NCBI GenBank assembly: GCA_002084545.1
Contig: NBLJ01000010.1
Coordinates: 1-34,366, forward strand
Direction of reading: 5' to 3'
Length of the DNA: 34,366 bases
From: Desulfobacteraceae bacterium 4572_123
GTDB taxonomy: Bacteria; Desulfobacterota; Desulfobacteria; Desulfobacterales; 4572-123
Positions within the stretch are counted from its first letter, which is position 1. Every line of letters starts with the position of its first letter. The position numbers were made by a program, and so were the translations under genes. The notes under the pieces were generated by a model. The model did no database searches. It saw nothing but the letters and a program-made list of their open reading frames with translations, and was not told the DNA's origin. Shown one piece after another: positions 5,122 to 24,266 of this stretch.

Positions 5122-5631
5122 ATGAAAGAACGACTGGACAGAACCGATCTGAATATCATTGGTTTGCTTCAAAAAGACGGGCGTATGCCCAGTTCTGAAA
5201 TTGCTAAAAAAACAGGCATTTCCGAAGCAACGGTGCGGTATCGTCTGAAAAAACTGATTGACGGTGAATTCATACAGATCGTGGCTGCAGGCAATCCCAT
5301 CAAATTGGGCTTTGGCATTGCGGCCAATATTGGTCTTTATACCGATAACCTGCAGATTGAAGACATCATCGAAGAATTGAAAAAATTGGAACGATTGTCA
5401 TATATCGCCCAGATGACCAGTGACCCAACCATCGAGCTGGAAACATTCGTTGAGTCCATCGATGATCTTCATCAACTGCTTTCCCAAATTGAATCCATTA
5501 AAGGAATTAAAAGTATTGAAACCACCTTTATCCGGCGAATCATCAGGGAGCGTTACGATTGGGGTACCCCCGGACGGATTGTTGAACAGAACGAAATACC
5601 GGGAAAAAATAATTCCAGCAAAGGAGAGTGA
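5122..5631 (+). CDS. Lrp/AsnC family transcriptional regulator
   Basis: The protein is 169 residues. The N-terminal winged helix-turn-helix (about 4-60) includes LDRTDLNIIGLLQKDGR and the recognition stretch ISEATVRYRLKKL, typical of the Lrp/AsnC family. The C-terminal RAM/ACT-like domain (about 65-145) would bind a small ligand, often an amino acid, and drive oligomerisation. AGGAG lies about 7 bases before the ATG. The stop codon (5629-5631) falls between the Shine-Dalgarno and the start of the MttB-family gene, so the two are almost certainly co-transcribed and translationally coupled. The likely role is to control the methyltransferase/oxidoreductase genes and perhaps the upstream redox genes in response to a substrate such as a betaine or amino acid (inference). 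Confidence 0.9.
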   Translation: MKERLDRTDLNIIGLLQKDGRMPSSEIAKKTGISEATVRYRLKKLIDGEFIQIVAAGNPIKLGFGIAANIGLYTDNLQIEDIIEELKKLERLSYIAQMTSDPTIELETFVESIDDLHQLLSQIESIKGIKSIETTFIRRIIRERYDWGTPGRIVEQNEIPGKNNSSKGE

Positions 5632-5636
5632 GACAG

Positions 5637-7067
5637 ATGGCACATGCAAGAATGACGTTCTTAAATCAAGACGAGATGGACCTGATCCACGCTCGGAGTA
5701 TCCAGGTGTTGGAAGATATCGGCATCAAAGTTCACAGTGAATCCGTATTGAAGCTGTTGAGAGAAAAAGGGGCCGATGTCGATTTTGATGCCATGATCGC
5801 AAAAATACCCGAAAAAATGGTTGAAAAAGCACTTGCACTGGCGCCGAGGTCTTTCAAGCTGTGTGCCCGGGATTCGAAACACGATTTAATACTGCCCGCG
5901 CACTCCTGTCCATACGCAACAACAAGCGGGCTTGCCGTGTTTATTACCGATTATGAAACCGGCGAATACCGCAAGTCCATCCGCAGGGATATTGCTGAAT
6001 TTTCGAGACTTTGCGATGCTTTGTCTCCCGATTTTCTTTGGACTGCAATGACCGCATCCGATGTCCCCGCATTAGCTCACGGCCCCCATGAGATATGGGA
6101 AACCTTGAAAAATACGGTAAAGCATGTACAGGGCGTAACGGTACAGAGCGCAGCGGATGCGAAAGTTCAGATCGAACTGGCCGCACTCATCGCCGGTGGA
6201 AGAAAGGCGTTGAAAAAACGCCCCCTGATTTCGGTGATCAGTTGCCCCATTGCACCCCTTGTTTTTGAAAAAGGATCCATCGAGGCTCAGGTTGAGTTCG
6301 CCAAGGCGGGCATCCCCATATGCTCCATGTCCATGTCCATGGGCGGGCTATCCGCACCGGTTACGGTAGCCGGAATGATAATGACTGCCAACGCCGAAAA
6401 CATGGCCAGTCTGGTGATTACCCAGGCAGCGGCACCCGGAGCCCCCCATATTTATACATCCGAATCCGCTCCCATGGACATGCTTTCCGGCAGTATCAAT
6501 TATGGTGCTCCGGAAAAAGCGCTTGTCAGTTTCGGACTGGGCCAGATGGCCAGAAGCTATGGTTTGCCCTGTCTGGTTTCAGATATGGGCTTTGGTGGTG
6601 ATATCAAGGGCGGGCTTGAAAATGTTCAAATTTTAATCAATCAAATTGTTGGTATGACAGCCCATACGGATATCATCACTGGAATGGGGTATACTGATGA
6701 CGCCAAGGGGATTTCCTTTGAGCAGCTCGTCATCGATTCCTACATGTGGGATCTGTTTCGGAATTTCAAAAAAGAAATAGATGTTACGGAAGAAAAGATC
6801 GGTTTTGATGCGCTCAAAAATATCGGCCCGGGAGGGGATTTCCTGACCAGCGATCATACACTTAAATATTTAAGAAGCGATTTAACCATTTGGAATCAGG
6901 CAAAGACGAATCTGCTGAATATGGACAATGCCGGAATGGCAAAAGAGGCAAATCGTATCGCCAGACAAATAATCAAGGATCATCAGGTGCCGTCCCTGGA
7001 TGGGACAGTAATCCAGCGGGGGGATGAGATTATCCGAGCCTATGAGAAAGCGGTGGCTATATCGTAG
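5637..7067 (+). CDS. MttB-family (non-pyrrolysine) methylamine/betaine methyltransferase
   Basis: The 476-residue protein belongs to the trimethylamine methyltransferase (MttB) superfamily, a TIM-barrel family that transfers a methyl group from a methylated amine to a corrinoid protein. Seen here: the family N-terminus with IHARSIQVLEDIGIKVHS, the glycine-rich GGLSAPVTVAGMI stretch and a C-terminal KEANRIARQIIKDHQVP. The frame has no internal amber codon, so this is not the pyrrolysine-containing MttB but a member of the larger class that includes the glycine betaine enzyme MtgB and relatives acting on proline betaine, carnitine or butyrobetaine. The exact substrate cannot be read off. The start at ATG 5637 is chosen because AAGGAG at 5621-5626 is 10 bases upstream; GTG 5628 would sit almost on the Shine-Dalgarno. 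No corrinoid protein or corrinoid-reactivating enzyme is encoded nearby, which is unusual. Confidence 0.87.
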   Translation: MAHARMTFLNQDEMDLIHARSIQVLEDIGIKVHSESVLKLLREKGADVDFDAMIAKIPEKMVEKALALAPRSFKLCARDSKHDLILPAHSCPYATTSGLAVFITDYETGEYRKSIRRDIAEFSRLCDALSPDFLWTAMTASDVPALAHGPHEIWETLKNTVKHVQGVTVQSAADAKVQIELAALIAGGRKALKKRPLISVISCPIAPLVFEKGSIEAQVEFAKAGIPICSMSMSMGGLSAPVTVAGMIMTANAENMASLVITQAAAPGAPHIYTSESAPMDMLSGSINYGAPEKALVSFGLGQMARSYGLPCLVSDMGFGGDIKGGLENVQILINQIVGMTAHTDIITGMGYTDDAKGISFEQLVIDSYMWDLFRNFKKEIDVTEEKIGFDALKNIGPGGDFLTSDHTLKYLRSDLTIWNQAKTNLLNMDNAGMAKEANRIARQIIKDHQVPSLDGTVIQRGDEIIRAYEKAVAIS

Positions 7068-7155
7068 GTTCAAATATCGTTCTCAGAATGTTTTGCAGGT
7101 TCGGCAGCCATAAAACAGATGTTATCATCAGTGGATGTCGGGAAGGCCGGATTAA

Positions 7156-9288
7156 ATGAATAGTCAAACGGGAAAAACAAAATCGCATACCCTGCCGGTC
7201 AGCTGTAATAGAGATTGCTCCGCAGGATGCCCGTTACTGGCGCATGTAAAAAACGGGGAAATTATTAAAATTACCAACAACCCTGCCGGTACGCGATATA
7301 TGAAGGGCTGCAGTAATGGGTTCCAGGCCATGCGGGCGGCCTATGCCCCGGACAGAATATTGAAACCCCTGATCAGGACAGGTTCAAGGGGTTCCGGCAA
7401 TTTTAAGGAAGTGTCCTGGGATGAAGCCTTTGATCGTGTTGCAGCAGGATTAAGTACCGTAAAAGAAAAGTATGGGAGCAATTCCGTCATATTTCTCGGC
7501 GGCGGCGGAGCATGCAGAGGCGCTTTGCATAATACGTATCGTTTGACGGAACGATTTCTCAATATGTTTGGCAGTAACGTAAAAAAATATGGCAATTACA
7601 GCTGTTCGGCTTCCGATTTTGTTACACCCTTTGTCTTTGGCACGCATGAAGTAGGTTTTGATGCCGGTACTTTGCAACATTCCAAGATGATTATTTTATG
7701 GGGTGCCAATATTATGGACACCCGGTTTGGATGCGAATATCCAACCCGCATCAGGGAGGCTGCAAAAAACGGTGTGCCCGTTATTGTCATTGACCCCAGA
7801 AAATCCAATACAGCCAATCTGCTAAACGCCCAATGGATCAGGATACGTCCCGGTACGGATACGGCAATGATGGCAGCCGTTTTATATGAACTGATCAATC
7901 ATAACCAGGTTGATTATCCATACATGGAAAAATACTGTATCGGGTTTGATCAGGTAAAAAAATATATTCTCGGTACGGATGATCATCAGCCCAAAACGCC
8001 TGCCTGGGCGGAACCAATATGCGGTACCAGAGCCGGCACAATTAAAAAACTGGCGGATCTGTATGGCCGTACACAACCTGCGGCACTCATTCCCGGTTTA
8101 TCCATCCAAAGAAATATCGGTGGGGAAGAGGCCATGCGAATGGCTATGGTTCTGCAAGCCGCAACCGGCAATACAGGAAAAATGGGCGGCGCATCCGGCG
8201 GCTGCATCTGGGGTGGTTTGCCAGTGCCCGAATGCGGAAAAATAGATACAGCCGATATAGCGGCAAGTTCATCAATCCCGGAAATCCCGGAATACAATTG
8301 GCCGGATGCCATTCTTGAAGGTAAAAATGGCGGGTTCCCCGTGGATATACAAGCCATCTATAATGTGGGCGGAAATTATCTTTCCCAGGGCAGTGATATC
8401 CATAAAAATATTCGTGCGTTTAACAAGGTGGATTTTTCGGTCTGTCACGAGCAATTTATGACACCGACAGCCGGATACTGTGATATTATCCTCCCGGTAT
8501 CTTGCTTTCTGGAAAGAGAAGATATCCTTTTTACGGGAATGAACTACCTGCTTTATTCAGGTAAGGCCATAGACCCCCCGGGCGATGTGAAGGATGATTA
8601 TGATATTTTTTGTGAGCTTTCAAATCGTCTGGGTTTTAAAAATACATATTCAGAAGGAAAAACAGCATCACAATGGATTAAGCAATTTATGGATGGCTCA
8701 GAAATTACAGATCATGCGCTTTTTAAACGGACAGGCATTTACAGCGGAAAAGAGCAGATGAGAATCGGGCTTTCTGATTTTTTTTCCGACCCCGAAAAAA
8801 ATCCGCTTAAAACTCCTTCCGGTAGAATTGAACTGGCTTCGGAAAATTATGCAAAAACCGGTTTTCCCGCCATACCGACATATCGGGGAATGGCAGATGA
8901 AGCACAGTATCCTTTAAGACTTGTTACCCCGCATTCCCTGAATCGAATTAACTCTTCCTGTACCAATATTCAATGGTTTAAAGCACGTGAACAGCATATG
9001 CTATGGATGAATCCGGTTGATGCCCGGAAAAGAAATCTTCAGGATAAACAGGTGGTGATGGTTGCAAACGCCCGGGGGAAGATTCAAATCCCTGTTAAGG
9101 TGACCAATGACATCATGGAAGGGGTCGTTTGCCTGCTGGAGGGAATATGGCCGGACCTGGATGAAAACGGCATTGATCATGCCGGTGCGGCAAACATGCT
9201 GACTTCAACCGAACCTACGGAGCCATGCATGGGATCCAGGACACATTCCGTTCTGGTGGAGGTTTATTATGATCCCCATGCCTCCTGA
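7156..9288 (+). CDS. Molybdopterin oxidoreductase, DMSO reductase family
   Basis: The 710-residue catalytic subunit has an N-terminal [4Fe-4S] motif with cysteines at 17, 21, 25 and 52, a central molybdopterin domain, and a C-terminal molydopterin dinucleotide-binding domain (about 590-700) containing NARGKIQIPVKVTNDIMEG. The segment YGNYS at 145-149 matches the YGxYS region that in DmsA-like enzymes provides the serine ligand to molybdenum, so Ser149 is the candidate ligand and a formate-dehydrogenase-type Sec/Cys ligand is unlikely. There is no Tat signal, so it probably acts in the cytoplasm or depends on a partner. No iron-sulfur (DmsB) or membrane anchor (DmsC) gene follows, which makes it an orphan catalytic subunit. 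It lies 88 bases after the MttB-family gene, probably in the same operon. Substrate unknown; an oxidised sulfur, N-oxide or related compound is possible. Confidence 0.88.
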   Translation: MNSQTGKTKSHTLPVSCNRDCSAGCPLLAHVKNGEIIKITNNPAGTRYMKGCSNGFQAMRAAYAPDRILKPLIRTGSRGSGNFKEVSWDEAFDRVAAGLSTVKEKYGSNSVIFLGGGGACRGALHNTYRLTERFLNMFGSNVKKYGNYSCSASDFVTPFVFGTHEVGFDAGTLQHSKMIILWGANIMDTRFGCEYPTRIREAAKNGVPVIVIDPRKSNTANLLNAQWIRIRPGTDTAMMAAVLYELINHNQVDYPYMEKYCIGFDQVKKYILGTDDHQPKTPAWAEPICGTRAGTIKKLADLYGRTQPAALIPGLSIQRNIGGEEAMRMAMVLQAATGNTGKMGGASGGCIWGGLPVPECGKIDTADIAASSSIPEIPEYNWPDAILEGKNGGFPVDIQAIYNVGGNYLSQGSDIHKNIRAFNKVDFSVCHEQFMTPTAGYCDIILPVSCFLEREDILFTGMNYLLYSGKAIDPPGDVKDDYDIFCELSNRLGFKNTYSEGKTASQWIKQFMDGSEITDHALFKRTGIYSGKEQMRIGLSDFFSDPEKNPLKTPSGRIELASENYAKTGFPAIPTYRGMADEAQYPLRLVTPHSLNRINSSCTNIQWFKAREQHMLWMNPVDARKRNLQDKQVVMVANARGKIQIPVKVTNDIMEGVVCLLEGIWPDLDENGIDHAGAANMLTSTEPTEPCMGSRTHSVLVEVYYDPHAS

Positions 9289-9411
9289 TTTAATACGGCA
9301 GTAAACATCATTTTAAGCATTGATTTTTTGAACAAAACTTTTTCAGGAAGGATTTATAGCCACCTTCATCATTATTGAGGGGCCAAAGTCGGCTAAACGG
9401 CAAACAAAATA

Positions 9412-9442
9412 TCCGGGCGGCAGCGTCATTGTACCGCCCGGA
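9412..9442. terminator. Bidirectional intrinsic terminator
   Basis: A perfect 9-base inverted repeat TCCGGGCGG / CCGCCCGGA flanks a 13-base loop, between two convergent genes. On the minus strand the stem is followed by TATTTTGTTTG, a reasonable U-rich tail for the HesB-like gene. On the plus strand the tail (CATAAAAC) is weak, so plus-strand function for the molybdoenzyme transcript is less certain. Confidence 0.7.
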
Positions 9443-9472
9443 CATAAAACCCGATAGGGATAATAGAAGTTA

Positions 9473-9781
9473 CTAGCAGGAACCGGCGGAACCGCAGCCC
9501 GAGCATCCGGCGCCTAACTCTATGCCGCTGGTGATTTTAAATCCGTAATTGGTAAAATCGACATTTATTGGTGCTGCCTTTTCCATGAATTTTTTATCGA
9601 CGATATATTTAAAATTATCAATTTCATAGGTATTATCAGTGTCTTTAGGCTCATCCAGAGCCATGGCAAGCGATGGCCCGCCTCATCCACCTTCATTTAA
9701 AAATATTCGTACCGGCGAAACTTCGCGATCCTTAAAATATTCTGCAAGTTGAGCAGTTGCAGCAGCGCTGACTTGAAGCAT
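9473..9781 (-). CDS. HesB/IscA-like selenoprotein with UGA as selenocysteine
   Basis: Read through one in-frame UGA (9685-9683), the gene encodes 102 residues: an N-terminus MLQVSAAATAQLAEYF, then RIFLNEGG-Sec-GGPSLAMALDEP with Sec at residue 33, then an acidic/aromatic middle, ending ITSGIELGAGCSGCGSAGSC. A-type iron-sulfur carrier (IscA/HesB) proteins have three key cysteines: one after a glycine near residue 35 and a Cys-x-Cys/CxxC-like pair near the C-terminus. The UGA falls exactly at the first site and the C-terminal cysteines are intact. HesB-like selenoproteins have been reported in prokaryotes (recalled, not searched). The start is supported by GGAGGA, TAAC, ATG. Conventional gene calling would start at the Met after the UGA and report a 63-residue stub. 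A plain nonsense mutation is the alternative but is less likely given full conservation on both sides and a strong promoter. Confidence 0.82.
9658..9679 (-). promoter_or_regulatory. Candidate bacterial SECIS hairpin
   Basis: Three bases after the UGA, GGGCCAU pairs with AUGGCUC (7 pairs, one G-U) around an 8-base loop CGCUUGCC. A guanosine at the second loop position fits the bacterial SECIS pattern. The distance from UGA to this guanosine (12 bases) is a little shorter than the usual range, so the exact fold is uncertain. Confidence 0.5.
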
Positions 9782-9805
9782 GTTATCCTCCTTGTAAATA
9801 AGTCG

Positions 9806-9821
9806 GCCCGTCCTTCCGGGC
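9806..9821 (-). other. Hairpin in the 5' leader of the HesB-like gene
   Basis: A 5-base GC stem (GCCCG/CGGGC) with a 6-base loop lies between the promoter and the ribosome binding site of the selenoprotein gene. It could affect mRNA stability or translation. No riboswitch class is recognised. Confidence 0.35.
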
Positions 9822-9846: not shown

Positions 9847-9875
9847 ATTATAATAACACTTTTAAACTTTGTCAA
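9847..9875 (-). promoter_or_regulatory. Full-consensus sigma-70 promoter for the HesB-like selenoprotein
   Basis: On the minus strand TTGACA (9875-9870) is followed after exactly 17 bases by TATAAT (9852-9847). Both hexamers match the consensus at every position. The predicted transcription start is near 9840, giving a leader of about 60 bases. Confidence 0.8.
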
Positions 9876-10024: not shown

Positions 10025-12133
10025 TCAATTCGTAGTTCCGTATGATGTTTTCATTACGATCAGGCTGACGGTTTTTAAGAGTATCAACACTCCCGCAGCC
10101 TGGAGAATACCGCAGTATGGAATAAGTACAACACTTGTAAAGAGTGTGCCGCAGGCCGCTCCGGCCAGGTCTGCTGAAAATGTGCGGGTTAACGCCGAAG
10201 TGTTATTCCCTTTCAAATAAAGGGCCAGTGGAAACTGAAATCCGCAGACCATGGAGATTGAAAACCCGAAGACCAGATAAAAAAAGATCGGCAACCTGTC
10301 TCCGGACTGCCAAAGGGCCATGATAAAGATGCCCATTAAGGCGATCAGAAAAAAATCAGTCAGGTATAAAAAACGTCGTCGATTCCTGCTGATCCTGGTG
10401 CCGAGCCATGCACCGGGCAGGAGACCGCTTAGAAAAGCGGTGACGATAAGCCCGATATGAAGATAGATATATCCGAAAAAAATCTGAAAGGCAAAGATGA
10501 CCAGAATCTCGCTGCCCATGGAAATCCATCCGCTGGAAAATAAAATAAATTCTTCAGCGCGGATACAAAACAGGTAGATACCGCACAGCAAAATCAGGAT
10601 AATGATGAATATGGCCGGAGATGTTGAAAATTTGGCAAACCACTGGGCAAACATCAGCCGCATCAGAGCGGGTGAGAGATCCTGGTTGATGGGTGTCGAC
10701 GGATCCAGTAATTCACGCAGGGCTGTAATCCTATTGGCTGTGATGTCGCCGTAAAAATAGCTGCCGATATACCGGCTACTGATCTGCTTTTTGGCAAGCA
10801 AGGCCGGGATGTCGCTGTTTATGGGCGCATTGCGGCATAAAAAAATGATCTGTTGCCCGGGGATCAGCAGGAGATGATTAAAAAAGGGAGTCAGTGAATT
10901 ATATACGGAAGAGAGTTTTCGGCGCTGGGGTTCGGCCAGGTAATTTTCAAACCCGGTCATGGCAAAACTCAATATTCCTTCATCGGTCAGACGGGATCTG
11001 GCAAGTTTAAAAAACCGCGTGGTAAAAAATCGGTTGAGCTGAAATGTTTCCGGTTCCGGAAGATTGATAATAACGGCATCATAGCGTTTTCGGGTTTTTT
11101 TCAGAAAGAATCTTGCATCTTCATGAATAATCCGAAGTCCTGGTATTTTTTTAATGAATTCATATTTGAATCCGGCCATGGATATTTCCGGATCAAGCTC
11201 TATATAATCGATGGATTGAAGATGATATTTTTTGATCTCGGACAGCATGCCGCTGCGGGCGGAAATCAGCAGAACATGGTGCGGTGTATCCAGTTGTGAC
11301 AGGGCATAATGAATGTTTTGCTCGGCAGCAGCCGGGCTGTGGGTGCTGAAAAGGGGCATCCCGTTTGAAAAAAGAGTGAATTGATCCAGATTTTGATGCA
11401 CCTCCACCCGGCCGTAGGGTGTTTCCCGGTAATAAGCCAGGCGTCCCGTGAGCGGATTCAGGGAAAAGGTTTCAAAAAAAACACCTGCCAGAAGGCAACA
11501 AGCCGTCAGGCTGCTGCCTGTCAGCACCCAAACCCCCCATCTACGGTTGGCTGGAAACACGAGAAAAGATGCCGCCAGCAGGGGCAGGCTGGACAGAAAT
11601 ACAGCCTGTAAAGGAGATACAAGGTAGACCAGGGCAAATGAAAAAACAACGCCGCCGGAAATATCGCCGATATTGTCGCTGATATATATCATGGCTCCGG
11701 GAAATCCGGGCTGCAGGTTTCTTAAGGCCATCAGGAAGCAGGGCAGGATAAAACCCAGCAGCAGACAGTAAGGAAGCATTAAGAAAAAAGTGTAGGCAAG
11801 AATCGGGTAAAATCCCACGGAGGAGCCGGGAATAAATACCACGTCCCGCAGCAGGCGGATGGCCATGATCTGGACCGGCGGCAAAAATGTCAACGCAAGT
11901 GCCATCCATCCTATCGTGGACAGGGTGACCTGGCGCTGACGGTCCAGCAGGCCGCGGGCCAGCAGGGTACCCATACCGTTTAAGCTCAGCCAGTTGAAAA
12001 AAATCAGGGCAATGATAAACTCATTGCCCTGGAACTGGGCCAGAAACTCCCGGATTGTCAAAAGCTGGAGCACCACCGAAGCAATGCCGGCTGCCACAAT
12101 TACACGGATGACGGCATTTTTATCTCTGTTCAT
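10025..12133 (-). CDS. Polytopic membrane protein with spermidine-synthase-like domain
   Basis: The 702-residue protein has three parts: about seven N-terminal transmembrane helices (about 8-220), a soluble spermidine-synthase-like Rossmann domain (about 235-440), and about six C-terminal helices (about 495-695). In the soluble domain IELDPE (311-316) and HEDARFFL (337-344) are recognisable polyamine-synthase motifs. The glycine-rich nucleotide loop, normally GGGDG, reads SARSG (291-295), and the catalytic DLPDP-like segment reads NLPEP (357-361). Canonical aminopropyl transfer is therefore doubtful. Many bacteria encode such membrane-fused spermidine synthase homologues of unknown function. 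The start codon overlaps the 3' end of the MEMO1-AMMECR1 gene by 14 bases, so the two are translationally coupled. No strong terminator follows, only an AT-only hairpin at 9972-9994. Confidence 0.82.
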   Translation of the reverse strand: MNRDKNAVIRVIVAAGIASVVLQLLTIREFLAQFQGNEFIIALIFFNWLSLNGMGTLLARGLLDRQRQVTLSTIGWMALALTFLPPVQIMAIRLLRDVVFIPGSSVGFYPILAYTFFLMLPYCLLLGFILPCFLMALRNLQPGFPGAMIYISDNIGDISGGVVFSFALVYLVSPLQAVFLSSLPLLAASFLVFPANRRWGVWVLTGSSLTACCLLAGVFFETFSLNPLTGRLAYYRETPYGRVEVHQNLDQFTLFSNGMPLFSTHSPAAAEQNIHYALSQLDTPHHVLLISARSGMLSEIKKYHLQSIDYIELDPEISMAGFKYEFIKKIPGLRIIHEDARFFLKKTRKRYDAVIINLPEPETFQLNRFFTTRFFKLARSRLTDEGILSFAMTGFENYLAEPQRRKLSSVYNSLTPFFNHLLLIPGQQIIFLCRNAPINSDIPALLAKKQISSRYIGSYFYGDITANRITALRELLDPSTPINQDLSPALMRLMFAQWFAKFSTSPAIFIIILILLCGIYLFCIRAEEFILFSSGWISMGSEILVIFAFQIFFGYIYLHIGLIVTAFLSGLLPGAWLGTRISRNRRRFLYLTDFFLIALMGIFIMALWQSGDRLPIFFYLVFGFSISMVCGFQFPLALYLKGNNTSALTRTFSADLAGAACGTLFTSVVLIPYCGILQAAGVLILLKTVSLIVMKTSYGTTN

Positions 12134-13616
12134 GGAAATATTGAACCTGATAGGTCATTACTTCCAGATCCGTGGTCTGCCAGGCATCGGCAGCCAGTCC
12201 GGCTTTACGGCATAAATGGCCCAGAAAATCCTCGGGCCGGGGCAACTGGTCCCATACCTGGGGCAAAAAAGTTGCACGGGCATATCCCTTGCGGATGATT
12301 ACCCCGTCTATTCCGCAACGCAATTTTGCCGCGAGATCCTTTCCGTCTGTGTACTCCAGTACCCGGGGCCGGGTCAGAACGCTGACTTCGATATCAATTT
12401 TATCCAGTTCACGGCTTGTAACCGGTGGAAAGCGGGGGTCATGAAACGCCGCATTCAGTGCATTTTTCCTTACTCCCTCACGAATGGTTTCATCAGGTTC
12501 CAGGCTGCCGATACATCCCCGCAGTTGGCCCTTGATCGTCAATGTGACAAATGTGCCGCACCTGGTTTCAAAATCCGGATCGGCCAGGGCCGTGTCAAGG
12601 GCCGCATCCTGAGAGTTGTCCATGGGCCGACCCAGTTTTTTGTTCAAAGTCCGACGGGCCATCCGGACCAGGGTCCGGCCTTGCTGTGTACTGAATTGTT
12701 TAATGGAAGTTTTGCTTTCTGTCATGGTAGTTTCTCCGTAAAAGGCGATGGCGGCATAGCCGACAACCCTGTCCCGGCTTCCGGCTGTATCGCCGCTGTT
12801 TGCATAATACAAAAGTAAAGGCTGCCAGCCGTGGCGGCGGGCCAGATCCAGAAGAATCATCAGTGGCACTTTTCCGCAGGCACGGTCGCTGCTCCCGGCC
12901 AAACGGCCGGATTCAAGATTTAAGATTATATCGATGGTCTCTCGATCTTTAATCACCGCATCCTGATAGGAAAGATAGTGGGAGAGATCGGAACTGACAA
13001 CCAGCAGGGTATCGTTATTCAACAGCGGATCAATGGCACCGGCAAGTTGCCTGGTATTGCCCGGCCCCAGAACCACGGGAACGAGTTTGAACCGGCCAAG
13101 ATATACCTGGAGCCAGGGCAGAATGACTTCTATGGAATGTTCGGCGGCATCCGATGCGGGTATCGAACGAAAAAGATTTGATTCGCGCCGGAGCAGTCCC
13201 GCATCGGGGTGCAGATCGACAAGGCCAAGAGGTGTGGCATAAGCATCAACATCACTGACGGCCCCGTTTTGAAACCCGATGCAATGGTCCGGAGCCAGAA
13301 CCATGATTTTGTCAAACCGGCCGGACTGCAGGGCAAAAGCCGCATGGGCCGCCACGGGGCCGGAGTATATATATCCGGCATGGGGCAGAATAAGGGCCTT
13401 GAGACTTTTTTGAGATGGAATTGTTACCGTCGATTCGCGCACCGCCGCAGTCTGTTTTCCAATGAGATCTTTTAACCGGGCGGCATCTGCCGGATAAAAA
13501 CTGCCGGCATATACGGGATGCCTGATATGCCGGGCCCGGGCCGGTAATGCCGCCGTCAGGCTGATTAGCGCCAGCACGAATACAACTGTCCCGAAGGGAG
13601 AAAACAGCCGGTTCAT
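12120..13616 (-). CDS. Secreted MEMO1-AMMECR1 fusion (AmmeMemoRadiSam proteins B and A)
   Basis: The 498-residue protein starts with a Sec signal peptide (about 1-29, hydrophobic VVFVLALISLTAALPARA), so it is predicted to be periplasmic. Residues about 33-295 form a MEMO1 domain, related to LigB-type dioxygenases, with PHAGYIYSG (His79), PDHCIGF (His111), EHSIE (His160), SSDLSHY (His213) and Cys247 in RACGKVP. These match the metal-binding set in human MEMO1 (two His and a Cys), and the His79-His111 spacing is the same. Residues about 310-490 form an AMMECR1 domain with the signature LRGCIG at 365-370. The third member of the usual trio, a radical SAM enzyme, is not in this window. The ribosome binding site AAGGAG precedes ATG 13616. 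The reaction is unknown for this family. Co-expression with the membrane spermidine-synthase-like protein points to a joint envelope function. Confidence 0.88.
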   Translation of the reverse strand: MNRLFSPFGTVVFVLALISLTAALPARARHIRHPVYAGSFYPADAARLKDLIGKQTAAVRESTVTIPSQKSLKALILPHAGYIYSGPVAAHAAFALQSGRFDKIMVLAPDHCIGFQNGAVSDVDAYATPLGLVDLHPDAGLLRRESNLFRSIPASDAAEHSIEVILPWLQVYLGRFKLVPVVLGPGNTRQLAGAIDPLLNNDTLLVVSSDLSHYLSYQDAVIKDRETIDIILNLESGRLAGSSDRACGKVPLMILLDLARRHGWQPLLLYYANSGDTAGSRDRVVGYAAIAFYGETTMTESKTSIKQFSTQQGRTLVRMARRTLNKKLGRPMDNSQDAALDTALADPDFETRCGTFVTLTIKGQLRGCIGSLEPDETIREGVRKNALNAAFHDPRFPPVTSRELDKIDIEVSVLTRPRVLEYTDGKDLAAKLRCGIDGVIIRKGYARATFLPQVWDQLPRPEDFLGHLCRKAGLAADAWQTTDLEVMTYQVQYFHEQR

Positions 13617-14530: not shown

Positions 14531-15394
14531 TTAATCAATATTTTTCAGTACACGTTTCCAGATTTTTTTTATCTCTTTTGCCGGCTGTGAAGCGCCGTCA
14601 TATTCAATGACGGTTTGTCCATCGACCATTGCCTTGGTAAATATTGGATCAAAAGAAATTCGTCCCACTGTTTTCAGCCCGCTTTGCCTTGCAAAATCTT
14701 CAATTTCACGGGTGACATCCGGATTCAGGTCAAATTTATTTACACAGACCATGGCGGGAACTTTAAAAAAATTCGCCAGTTGCGTCACGCGCTGCATGTC
14801 ATGTTTGCCCGATACCGTGGGCTCGGTTACGATAAGCACGGCGCTGGCCCCGCCAATGGATGCGATGACAGGACATCCGACCCCGGGAGGGCCGTCTGTG
14901 ATCAAAAGGTCCAGCTTCTTTTTCATTGCAAGGCTGCGTGCTTCCTTGCGCACCAGTGAAACCAGTTTGCCGGAATTTTCTTCGGCAATCCCGAGCCGGG
15001 CATGGACCATGGGACCAAAACGAGTATCCGATTTAAACCATTGACCGCAGGTGTTTACAGGAAAGTCAATGGCTTTTTCAGGACAGAAATAGACACAAAC
15101 CCCGCAGCCCTCACAGGCAATGGGGTCCACTTCATAACTTTCGCTGATGGATTCAAAACGGCACAGATCACGGCACAATCCGCACTCGGTGCATTTATCC
15201 GTATTTATGACGGCACTGCGCCCGCTTTGGAAATCGTGCTGCTCCAGGACCGCGGGGGATGTAATCAGGTGCAGATCCGCGGCATCAACATCGGCGTCAC
15301 ACAAAACCTTGCTCTCGGCAAGCGAGGCAAAAGCCGCCATTAAACTGGTTTTGCCGGTTCCTCCCTTACCGCTGATAACGATCAGTTCCTTCAT
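14531..15394 (-). CDS. MinD/Mrp-type P-loop ATPase with internal 2[4Fe-4S] ferredoxin domain (distal copy)
   Basis: The 287-residue protein has a deviant Walker A motif SGKGGTGKTSL at 8-18. An inserted bacterial ferredoxin domain (about 62-112) carries two clusters' worth of cysteines, CTECGLCRDLC and CEGCGVCVYFC. LLITDGPPGVGCPV provides the Walker B-like aspartate of the MinD/ParA class. Such proteins are common in anaerobes beside NifX-like small proteins and are thought to help in iron-sulfur or metal-cofactor assembly, though no function has been fixed. It is the last gene of a three-gene minus-strand operon, 15 bases after its paralogue, with GGAGC upstream of the ATG. The two paralogues may form a heterodimer (inference). 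Confidence 0.88.
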   Translation of the reverse strand: MKELIVISGKGGTGKTSLMAAFASLAESKVLCDADVDAADLHLITSPAVLEQHDFQSGRSAVINTDKCTECGLCRDLCRFESISESYEVDPIACEGCGVCVYFCPEKAIDFPVNTCGQWFKSDTRFGPMVHARLGIAEENSGKLVSLVRKEARSLAMKKKLDLLITDGPPGVGCPVIASIGGASAVLIVTEPTVSGKHDMQRVTQLANFFKVPAMVCVNKFDLNPDVTREIEDFARQSGLKTVGRISFDPIFTKAMVDGQTVIEYDGASQPAKEIKKIWKRVLKNID

Positions 15395-15409
15395 TAAAAA
15401 AGCTCCAGA

Positions 15410-16249
15410 TCAGGCATTGACGATTTGTGCAATGCGCTTGTAAAGTTTTATAAAATTTTCTTTGAATTCGGGCATGACATCCACCAGAAGCTCTCCCCGT
15501 GAATAAGCCTCGGCAATTTTTCGGTCAAAGGGTATTTCCATGAGGATGGGGAGATCCACCGATTTCGCATATTCGCGGACCTTGTCATCTCCCATGTCCG
15601 AGCGGTTGATGACCAGCCCGGCGGGAATGCCCAGAATTTTTACGGCCCCCACGGCCAGTTTCAGATCATGCAGGCCAAAGGGCGTAGGCTCGGTGACCAG
15701 CAGCACGAAATCGGTGTCGGCCATGGCGGTGATTACCGGGCAGGAAGTTCCCGGAGGGGCATCGATGATGGCGATCCTGTCCGGATCAATACGGGAGCGA
15801 ACTTTTTTGATCAGGGGCGGGGCCATGGCTTCTCCCACCCTGAGCTTGCCGTCGGCGAATTTAAGATTTTCACGATGACCGACCTGAAGGGTCCCCAGTT
15901 CACGACCGACTTCCGTGATGGCATTTTCCGGACAGACTTCCATGCATCCGCCGCAACTGTGACAGAGTTCATGAAATGTCAGCACGGTTTTCGCAATAAC
16001 CACAATGGCCTTGAACTGACAGATTTCCGCACATTTTCCACACAGATTGCATTTGTCTTTATCTATTTCCGGCACCGGAGTGGTGATTGCTTCGGTTTTA
16101 TCCATCAGTGGATTTAAAAAAAGATGAGCATTGGGCTCTTCCACATCGCAGTCAAGAATCTGTGCTTCGTCTTCAAGAGAAACAGCCAGATTAGTGGCGA
16201 TGGTAGTTTTGCCGGTCCCCCCTTTTCCACTGGCAATACTGATTATCAT
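15410..16249 (-). CDS. MinD/Mrp-type P-loop ATPase with internal 2[4Fe-4S] ferredoxin domain (proximal copy)
   Basis: The 279-residue protein is a paralogue of the next gene in the operon. It has the deviant Walker A IASGKGGTGKTTIATNLA at 5-22, a switch-like DCDVEEPNAHLFL at 33-45, a ferredoxin insert (about 60-112) with CNLCGKCAEIC and CHSCGGCMEVC, and AIIDAPPGTSCPV as the Walker B region. Members of the family couple nucleotide binding to dimerisation. With ferredoxin clusters on board, a role in cluster or electron transfer to a partner is likely. GGAGC lies upstream of the ATG, and 14 bases separate it from the NifX-like gene. The order NifX-like, ATPase, ATPase recurs in sulfate reducers and methanogens (recalled). 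Confidence 0.88.
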   Translation of the reverse strand: MIISIASGKGGTGKTTIATNLAVSLEDEAQILDCDVEEPNAHLFLNPLMDKTEAITTPVPEIDKDKCNLCGKCAEICQFKAIVVIAKTVLTFHELCHSCGGCMEVCPENAITEVGRELGTLQVGHRENLKFADGKLRVGEAMAPPLIKKVRSRIDPDRIAIIDAPPGTSCPVITAMADTDFVLLVTEPTPFGLHDLKLAVGAVKILGIPAGLVINRSDMGDDKVREYAKSVDLPILMEIPFDRKIAEAYSRGELLVDVMPEFKENFIKLYKRIAQIVNA

Positions 16250-16263
16250 ATTGGTGCTCCATT

Positions 16264-16917
16264 CTACTTTTTATCAAGCTGTTCAATGCGGTCGGAAATT
16301 TGACGCATTTGCTCTTTCAGGGCCTCAAGTTCCTGGGCTTTGGTCATATTGCCGCTCAGGGAGGAATTGGGGTAAGTTTCCGGAGTAAAGCCCCCGCCAC
16401 CGCCCATACCTCTGCCACCGCCCATACCTCTGCCGCCCCCCATGCCGCGACCGCCGCCGCCCATGCATCTACCCCCCATACCTCTGCCACCACCCATACC
16501 CATGCCTGATCCGGCACCCGGGGTCTGCGAGGAGCCTTGTGCTGCTCCAGAACCGTTCATGCCGTAATGGTCGTCGACATTGGCGCTGCTGGTGGATGAA
16601 AGCTGATTGTTTTTAAATTTTTCCAGAACATTCCTGACGGTTCCAGACTGTCCTGTAAAAAGTTCGATCCCCGCAGCCGTCAGGGTCTGGACCGCGTTGG
16701 GGCCGCAATTGCCGGTAATAACGGCACCGGCACCTTTCGAAGCAACAAGTTGGGCCGCCTGGATACCGGCGCCACCACCCAGAGCCATGGCACTGTTATC
16801 TACAGATTCAAAATCCATGGTATCGGTTTCTATCAAAAGAAAAAATGCACATCGCCCAAAACGGGTATCGATCTGCGCCTCTAAATCCGTGCCGTTGGAA
16901 CTGATGGCTACTTTCAT
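16264..16917 (-). CDS. NifX/NifB-C-like protein fused to Gly/Met-rich and coiled-coil tail
   Basis: Residues 1 to about 105 form a dinitrogenase iron-molybdenum cofactor biosynthesis (NifX/NifB C-terminal-like) domain: MKVAISSNGTDLEAQIDTRF, ALGGGAGIQAAQLVASKGAG and VITGNCGPNA. These small proteins bind metal-sulfur cofactors or their precursors. A low-complexity tail (about 137-176) is built almost only of Gly, Met and Arg with one Cys, followed by a short amphipathic helix QELEALKEQMRQISDRIEQL. The tail resembles DUF5320-type proteins, which usually stand alone next to NifX-like genes, so this looks like a fusion of the two (inference). AAAGGA precedes the start. It is the first gene of the operon with the two ferredoxin-ATPases. 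No nitrogenase genes are present, so a role in general metal-cofactor handling is more likely than nitrogen fixation. Confidence 0.82.
   Translation of the reverse strand: MKVAISSNGTDLEAQIDTRFGRCAFFLLIETDTMDFESVDNSAMALGGGAGIQAAQLVASKGAGAVITGNCGPNAVQTLTAAGIELFTGQSGTVRNVLEKFKNNQLSSTSSANVDDHYGMNGSGAAQGSSQTPGAGSGMGMGGGRGMGGRCMGGGGRGMGGGRGMGGGRGMGGGGGFTPETYPNSSLSGNMTKAQELEALKEQMRQISDRIEQLDKK
16390..16509 (-). repeat. In-gene tandem repeat encoding Gly-Met-Gly-Gly-Arg units
   Basis: About 120 bases of short imperfect tandem repeats with period near 18-24 bases encode repeated GMGGGR units in the NifX-like protein (residues 137-176). Copy number could vary between strains by replication slippage. 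Confidence 0.75.
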
Positions 16918-22634: not shown

Positions 22635-24266
22635 CTATTTAACAATTTTAGGCACCTGAAATAGCCGTGTAATTTCATCAACTTTAAATTCCGGCCAGGC
22701 GGCCTTGCTATTGTGCCGCAGGGCCTTTATCCCATGGCCGGCTTCAAGGATTTTGCCGATACAGGTCACCTTTATACCGGCATCACGGATTCGGGTTTCA
22801 AGCTGATCACACACATCGGGCCGGCAGCAGATCAGAAGACTGCCGGAACCGATTAGTCCCATGGGATCAATACCCAGCAGACGGCAGATCCTTTCAGTTT
22901 CCGGATATACCGGGATAAGATCCATATTGATTTCAAATTTATGCCCGCCGCAAATGCTGGTTTCCGCCAGTGCACTTGCAAGCCCCCCCTCGGTCACATC
23001 ATGCATGGCACTGACACCCTTTAAGCCTGCTGCAATGCCGGCCTCCTCCATGATGCTGATATGAGCAAGAAATCCGCGGCAGGTCTCTATCTCCGTCTCC
23101 GACATCCCCTTTTTAATTAAGCGATCTGCAAATTCACGGGCGATAATTGCAGTACCCTCCACTGCGACGGCTTTGGTGAGTAATATCCTGTCACCCGGGC
23201 GCATATTGCGCTTGTCGATAAGGGACTGCCGGCTCACTGTACCTGTCAGCATTCCACTGACCACAGGCCGGGTAACAGCGTCGGTGATTTCGGTGTGACC
23301 GCCGCACAGGGTTATATTCCAGCGTCGGCACATGGTCTGCAAATCGGACATGATACGGCAGATTCGGGAGGGCGTTATGTCGCAGGGAAGCAAAAGTGTG
23401 GTCAAAAGCCAGCGTGGAACGGCTCCGGATGTGGCTATGTCATTGGCGTTTACCAGTACAGCGTAGTCGCCGATGGAATCAGTAGCAAAGGTAATAGGAT
23501 CGGATTTTAAAACAATGACCTGTTCATCGGTCACATCTATTGCGGTTGTATCTTCCCCCACCCCCGGTTTGATTATAATCGACGGATCACTGATGTCCAG
23601 TTGCTCCAGAAAAGATTTCAGCAGGTCATTGGGCAGCTTACCGGCAGGCAGGGGAATGCCGAGGCGCACAATTTTTTCAAGCTCCTCAAGCCCTGTGATG
23701 GTAAAGTCGCTTTCTTCCGGAACAGTAAAATCTTTTGGGCTGTTGTTCAGAAAAACCGTAGTAGCACCGGCCCTGCGGCCTGCCTGGATATCAAAGATAA
23801 AATCCCCCACCACCAGAATCTGGTCAGCGCTGACATTCAATACTTGAGCGGCCCGCAGGATTCCGTCAGGACAGGGTTTGGGCGGGATCGGATCATCCCT
23901 GGAAATAATAAGATCAAAGTCGGCAGCGCGTGTCGTCTTAAAATTTTCCAGGGCCCGTTCAATGGAGCAGCGACTGTTGCGGCTGATGATGCCTATTAGC
24001 AATCCCTGGGATTTAAGCCGGGCAATCATCTGCTCGGCTCCCCCGGCAGGCCTGGATCGAATTGCAGCATCCATTTCGAATTGATCGAGTTTTTTCCGGG
24101 CCGCATCGCGCTTGGATAGGGGATTGATCTTGCAAATAAATTCAAGTACGGGTGTATCGGCCGGACAGTTCAGTTGGTTGCGGATCACTGAGAAATCAAG
24201 CGTTTCGGGTCGTGTCAGGGTTCCGTCGAAATCAAACAGGACGGCCTTTAAGCTAAATGTTTTCAT
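22635..24266 (-). CDS. HAD phosphatase-AIR synthase (HypE/ThiL-like) fusion
   Basis: The 543-residue protein fuses two enzymes. Residues about 5-205 are a HAD hydrolase of the phosphoglycolate-phosphatase type, with motif I FDFDGTLT (Asp12, Asp14), motif II IISRN, motif III KPCPDG and motif IV VVGDFIFD, all intact. Residues about 225-525 are an AIR synthase-related ATP-binding domain with GVGEDTTAIDV, NANDIATSGAVPRWLLT, CGGHTEITDAV and MHDVTEGGLASALAE, most like HypE/ThiL. The C-terminus lacks the PRIC-type tail of HypE, so it is not HypE itself, and there is no N-terminal Cys/Sec loop as in SelD. A small-molecule phosphate made by one half and removed by the other is conceivable. Reaction unknown. 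No clear Shine-Dalgarno precedes the ATG. Confidence 0.85.
   Translation of the reverse strand: MKTFSLKAVLFDFDGTLTRPETLDFSVIRNQLNCPADTPVLEFICKINPLSKRDAARKKLDQFEMDAAIRSRPAGGAEQMIARLKSQGLLIGIISRNSRCSIERALENFKTTRAADFDLIISRDDPIPPKPCPDGILRAAQVLNVSADQILVVGDFIFDIQAGRRAGATTVFLNNSPKDFTVPEESDFTITGLEELEKIVRLGIPLPAGKLPNDLLKSFLEQLDISDPSIIIKPGVGEDTTAIDVTDEQVIVLKSDPITFATDSIGDYAVLVNANDIATSGAVPRWLLTTLLLPCDITPSRICRIMSDLQTMCRRWNITLCGGHTEITDAVTRPVVSGMLTGTVSRQSLIDKRNMRPGDRILLTKAVAVEGTAIIAREFADRLIKKGMSETEIETCRGFLAHISIMEEAGIAAGLKGVSAMHDVTEGGLASALAETSICGGHKFEINMDLIPVYPETERICRLLGIDPMGLIGSGSLLICCRPDVCDQLETRIRDAGIKVTCIGKILEAGHGIKALRHNSKAAWPEFKVDEITRLFQVPKIVK

Follow-up and report, generated by a model that had tools for sequence, protein, structure and literature searches.

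HesB-like selenoproteins have been catalogued since at least 2006, when a table listing 11 selenoproteins and two Sec-to-Cys events was published; the table spans several Deltaproteobacteria, such as Syntrophobacter, Syntrophus, Desulfovibrio and Geobacter (PMC1794560). Most of the selenoproteins with which a 2026 review groups the HesB-like proteins have no clear function; the review lists the HesB-like ones as TIGR01911 and gives them a UxGP motif (PMC13188914). Mutagenesis and 75Se labelling have also revealed a HesB-like selenoprotein in Methanococcus maripaludis, whose function is not clear (as cited in PMC11097638). The gene that we describe here is therefore a new member of a known and common family.

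A probable selenoprotein gene with an in-frame UGA

The gene is found in Desulfobacteraceae bacterium 4572_123, within a window of 34,366 nt (the whole stretch of DNA analysed), where it occupies positions 9473-9781 on the reverse strand and runs from ATG to TAG. It encodes 102 residues if its single in-frame TGA (9683-9685, reverse strand) is read as selenocysteine at residue 33, in the context LNEGG-U-GGPSLAMALDE. Since this internal UGA would be a selenocysteine codon, the gene appears broken to gene finders; indeed, a plain ORF list contains only a 63-residue stub starting at an ATG (9664-9473, reverse strand). An earlier sequence-only reading of this DNA had given the same coordinates, UGA and 102-residue read-through product, all of which are present in the sequence, and we reproduced the 63-residue stub that it expected from a standard gene caller.

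That reading had also proposed a HesB/IscA-like selenoprotein and suggested searching the read-through product against HesB-like families. In this search the product matched NCBIfam NF038090 (IscA_HesB_Se) over residues 1-95 with 116 bits, well over the curated cut-off of 85 (E 7.7e-34). The homology extends across the UGA, and the UGA at codon 33 provides, at the first ligand position, the Sec or Cys that characterizes members of this family. The scores against related models were below their cut-offs: 34.2 bits for TIGR01911 (HesB_rel_seleno; cut-off 66.35), 21.3 bits for PF01521 (gathering cut-off 26.3), and likewise for the IscA, SufA and ErpA models. A phmmer search of PDB chains matched AQ_1857, IscA and HI1723; in AQ_1857 and IscA, the residue aligned with Sec33 is the first conserved Cys. 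The NF038090 match and this alignment support the proposal, and we consider it very probable, from the sequence, that this is an intact HesB/IscA-like selenoprotein gene of family NF038090.

Conservation of the UGA in the order

NF038090 was found over its cut-off in 245 of 291 genomes sampled from the order (~85%), and most of the matches listed from these 245 genomes have exactly one internal stop, a TGA. In the source genome, the NF038090 search turned up this one copy only. We read the codon at the UGA site in 60 distinct homologues from the order: it is TGA in 50, TGC in 8 and TGT in 2. The Cys homologues for which the sequence-only reading proposed to look do exist, with Cys aligned at the UGA in 10 of the 60. 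Together with the NF038090 score and the homology across the UGA, this conservation rules out chance. A similar picture was seen at 14 loci in GTDB genomes (TGA in 11, TGC in 3). Further loci outside the 60-homologue count (L032-L035, L038, L039 and L045) have a stop at the same site, listed as TGA, in a GG-U-AGP context.

These counts bear on the possibility that the locus is a pseudogene or a sequencing error, in which case the UGA would have arisen lately as a nonsense mutation and the product would be the 63-residue stub or none at all. Such a reading would fit the stub in the standard ORF list. It is opposed by the 50 of 60 distinct homologues, spread over many families of the order, that share the UGA, with Cys in the rest, and by a reading frame that is kept on both sides of the UGA; we regard its probability as negligible. 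For the sequence-only reading, a pseudogene would be revealed by close relatives having another kind of stop, or a shifted frame, at this site; in the homologues that we read there was no other stop, no other sense codon and no frameshift at this position. With the UGA conserved across genera, the pseudogene explanation was in practice already refuted.

In six genomes (G207, G256, G081, G017, G277 and G230; loci L042 and L070-L086), the Sec form coexists with a stop-free paralogue that mostly carries Cys, and on one contig (G230:C403) the Sec and stop-free paralogues adjoin.

A conserved hairpin downstream of the UGA

For the 41 nt starting from the UGA, the folding energy is -19.9 kcal/mol (z = -2.75). 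The apical hairpin, GGCUC-UGGAU-GAGCC (9648-9662, reverse strand), has a 5-nt loop, UGGAU, on a 5-bp stem, with 25 nt between UGA and loop and a G at loop position 2. As quoted in PMC13188914, the bSECIS model calls for a loop of 3-9 nt with a G in its first two positions, a stem of 4-16 bp, a distance of 16-37 nt from the UGA and a minimum free energy of at most -7.5 kcal/mol; the hairpin lies within all four constraints quoted there. A search with the Rfam SECIS model gave no match.

Of the cells of the helix, 97.7% are paired, compared with 5-53% when the helix is slid. Because it hardly varies, double compensatory changes are absent from it, and being too conserved for covariation we turned to frozen synonymous sites as evidence instead. 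Codons +8 and +9 after the UGA, which fall within the hairpin, are GCT CTG in 50 of 50 Sec genes, whereas elsewhere in the same UGA genes 20% of Ala codons are GCT and 29% of Leu codons are CTG. Cys homologues with Ala at +8 use GCT in just one of 7 cases (Fisher p = 1.9e-7, uncorrected for kinship). Common descent by itself accounts poorly for this invariance, since at conserved codons for Ala, Gly, Val, Thr, Pro, Leu, Ser and Arg the third base is the same between UGA genes in only 37% of cases on average. It also speaks against a pseudogene that, within the hairpin, third positions of codons stay fixed in the UGA forms only. Judged by its folding, its codon conservation and its agreement with the bSECIS model, the hairpin after the UGA is a conserved bacterial SECIS.

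Selenocysteine machinery

The source assembly comprises 3.18 Mb in 168 contigs, and is 88.3% complete and 7.5% contaminated. Profile searches of this genome recovered a full-length selB (E 2.2e-114) and selD (E 1.3e-111). We were not able to find selA (TIGR00474, PF03841) in this 88%-complete bin, nor tRNA-Sec (selC), which was sought with Rfam RF01852, with an anticodon-loop pattern and ARAGORN, and by BLAST with a relative's gene. These two gaps are what a pseudogene might be expected to show; yet selA is present in 275 of the 291 sampled genomes of the order, and tRNA-Sec in 10 of 10 relatives examined, and we read both gaps as probably due to assembly incompleteness. Thus, of the four genes selABCD for which the sequence-only reading proposed to check, selB and selD were found in the genome itself, while selA and selC were missing from the bin and are near-universal in the order.

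The selD gene (G000:C47:2101-3027; L014 1501-2427) is a further selenoprotein gene: it contains a single in-frame TGA, in the context GSG-U-ASKLPP.

Sec insertion at this site is deduced from sequence rather than from direct observation, which leaves some room for the UGA being recoded as another amino acid, through an altered code or plain read-through. TGA is, however, the ordinary stop of 9 of 25 main window ORFs checked, excluding a general code change; the UGA exchanges with Cys only; and the SECIS, selB and a Sec-type selD are all present. We therefore hold recoding to another amino acid to be very improbable, and Sec to be the residue that would be inserted at position 33.

Transcription signals and neighbouring genes

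A ribosome binding site, AAGGAGG (9787-9793, reverse strand), and a sigma-70 promoter, TTGACA-17-TATAAT (9847-9875, reverse strand), precede the ATG; the promoter matches 12 of 12 consensus bases with a 17-nt spacer, and the strong signals that had been claimed upstream of the gene are thus present. Downstream of the stop codon, a GC-rich hairpin with a U-rich tail (9401-9446, reverse strand; folding z = -3.1) is a probable intrinsic terminator, although a consensus scanner did not report it. With its own promoter upstream and this hairpin after the stop, the gene looks monocistronic, and is probably transcribed alone from the strong sigma-70 promoter. Between promoter and ribosome binding site, a 5' untranslated hairpin (9806-9821, reverse strand) may be regulatory or may have arisen by chance.

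No functional partner gene adjoins the HesB-like gene in the window. In relatives, certain genes come back upstream at about 10-13 of 28 loci; going by our own reading of their sequences, they are a macro-domain protein, a zinc-ribbon protein and a nucleoside diphosphate kinase-like gene. These recurrent neighbours gave no function, because none of them adjoins the gene in the window.

Elsewhere in the window, positions 5628-9288 (forward strand) hold a trimethylamine methyltransferase-like protein (MTTB family; under the TIGR02369 curated cut-off) adjoining a DMSO-reductase-type molybdoenzyme, and positions 12120-13616 (reverse strand) encode a Memo-AMMECR1 fusion protein. Another fusion protein, of 543 aa (22635-24266, reverse strand), combines a HAD-type phosphatase and an AIR-synthase/HypE/SelD-like domain. 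At 14531-16917 (reverse strand), a tandem pair of ParA/MinD-like ATPases carrying ferredoxin inserts adjoins a dinitrogenase Fe-Mo cofactor-like protein; of the two ATPases, the first stops at a TGA and the second is open in the same frame.

Predicted fold and C-terminal cysteines

An AlphaFold2 model built on a 48-sequence alignment is mostly beta (mean pLDDT 83, pTM 0.70), with a low-confidence, probably flexible C-terminal tail. Its best Foldseek matches are E. coli IscA, IscA with a [2Fe-2S] cluster, and SufA (TM about 0.6-0.7), and the predicted fold is accordingly of the IscA/SufA type.

Canonical A-type carriers (IscA, SufA, ErpA) end in CxC, and our phmmer alignment with IscA and AQ_1857 is consistent with such a tail in these carriers. 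The C-terminal segment of the protein, GAGCSGCGSAGSC (9473-9511 with the stop codon, reverse strand), instead carries Cys93, Cys96 and Cys102 in a CxxC...C arrangement. A C-terminal CxC occurs in 0 of 60 homologues, nearly all of which have a CxxC with another one or two Cys after it. The sequence-only reading had described both C-terminal cysteines as intact; the cysteines are indeed there, but their spacing is not the canonical one, so that the ligand geometry may differ.

Discussion

We propose that ribosomes arriving at UGA codon 33 would receive Sec-tRNA-Sec from SelB, which would sit on the hairpin shortly after this codon, yielding a 102-residue protein with Sec at its first cluster-ligand position. 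In a dimer, Sec33 and the C-terminal Cys residues could then hold Fe or an Fe-S cluster, to be handed to enzymes of anaerobic metabolism. We lean towards this carrier role as the most likely function, with only modest confidence, since the CxxC...C tail departs from that of canonical carriers and the window has no functional partner gene beside this one. The use of Sec in place of Cys may affect the redox potential or the metal that is bound.

Alternatively, the selenoprotein may be no Fe-S carrier at all; a selenol-thiol redox protein, or a protein binding metal or selenium, could combine an IscA fold with Sec33 and the CxxC tail. The CxxC-type tail in place of CxC in all sampled homologues points in this direction, as do the unimpaired nitrogen fixation of a Methanococcus hesB-like disruption mutant (PMC11097638) and the occurrence of Sec mostly at redox sites (PMC1794560). 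A fold nearest to IscA/SufA, and the substitution of Sec for a known cluster ligand, argue the other way. We see this alternative as a serious contender, if somewhat short of an even chance.

A bolder reading would have the Sec protein, with its CxxC...C tail, as the only A-type-like carrier of the organism, an anaerobe; it would then provide a dedicated metal site, Fe-S or other, with selenolate as ligand. A PF01521 search of the incomplete genome gave no other match; divergent paralogues could escape this search, since the HesB-like gene itself, below the Pfam cut-off, was not recovered by it. We consider this reading unlikely. If true, a natural Sec-ligated cluster would, to our knowledge, be new for the IscA fold.

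We agree with the sequence-only reading that this is a known class whose role is unsettled. ORF callers shorten a gene whose family, of unsettled function, is spread over most of the sampled genomes of the order. The natural Sec and Cys paralogues that coexist in some of these genomes make the reason for having Sec at a cluster-ligand Cys directly testable.

Comparison with known systems

The M. maripaludis protein is likewise HesB-like with Sec, but it is archaeal, and the likeness is drawn from its description in the cited source rather than from its sequence. With the A-type Fe-S carriers IscA, SufA and ErpA (PF01521), the protein shares the fold and the first ligand position; it differs from them in that Sec replaces Cys, CxxC...C replaces the C-terminal CxC, and its score lies below the PF01521 cut-off. 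Sec at the first conserved Cys and the UxGP motif are features in common with the HesB-like selenoproteins of TIGR01911 (PMC1794560, PMC13188914); the score of 34 bits, below the 66-bit cut-off, suggests that it belongs to a sister subfamily and not to that model. Finally, the protein matches NF038090 (IscA_HesB_Se) over its full length with the same Sec/Cys position and no difference that we could find, and it appears to be an ordinary member of this family.
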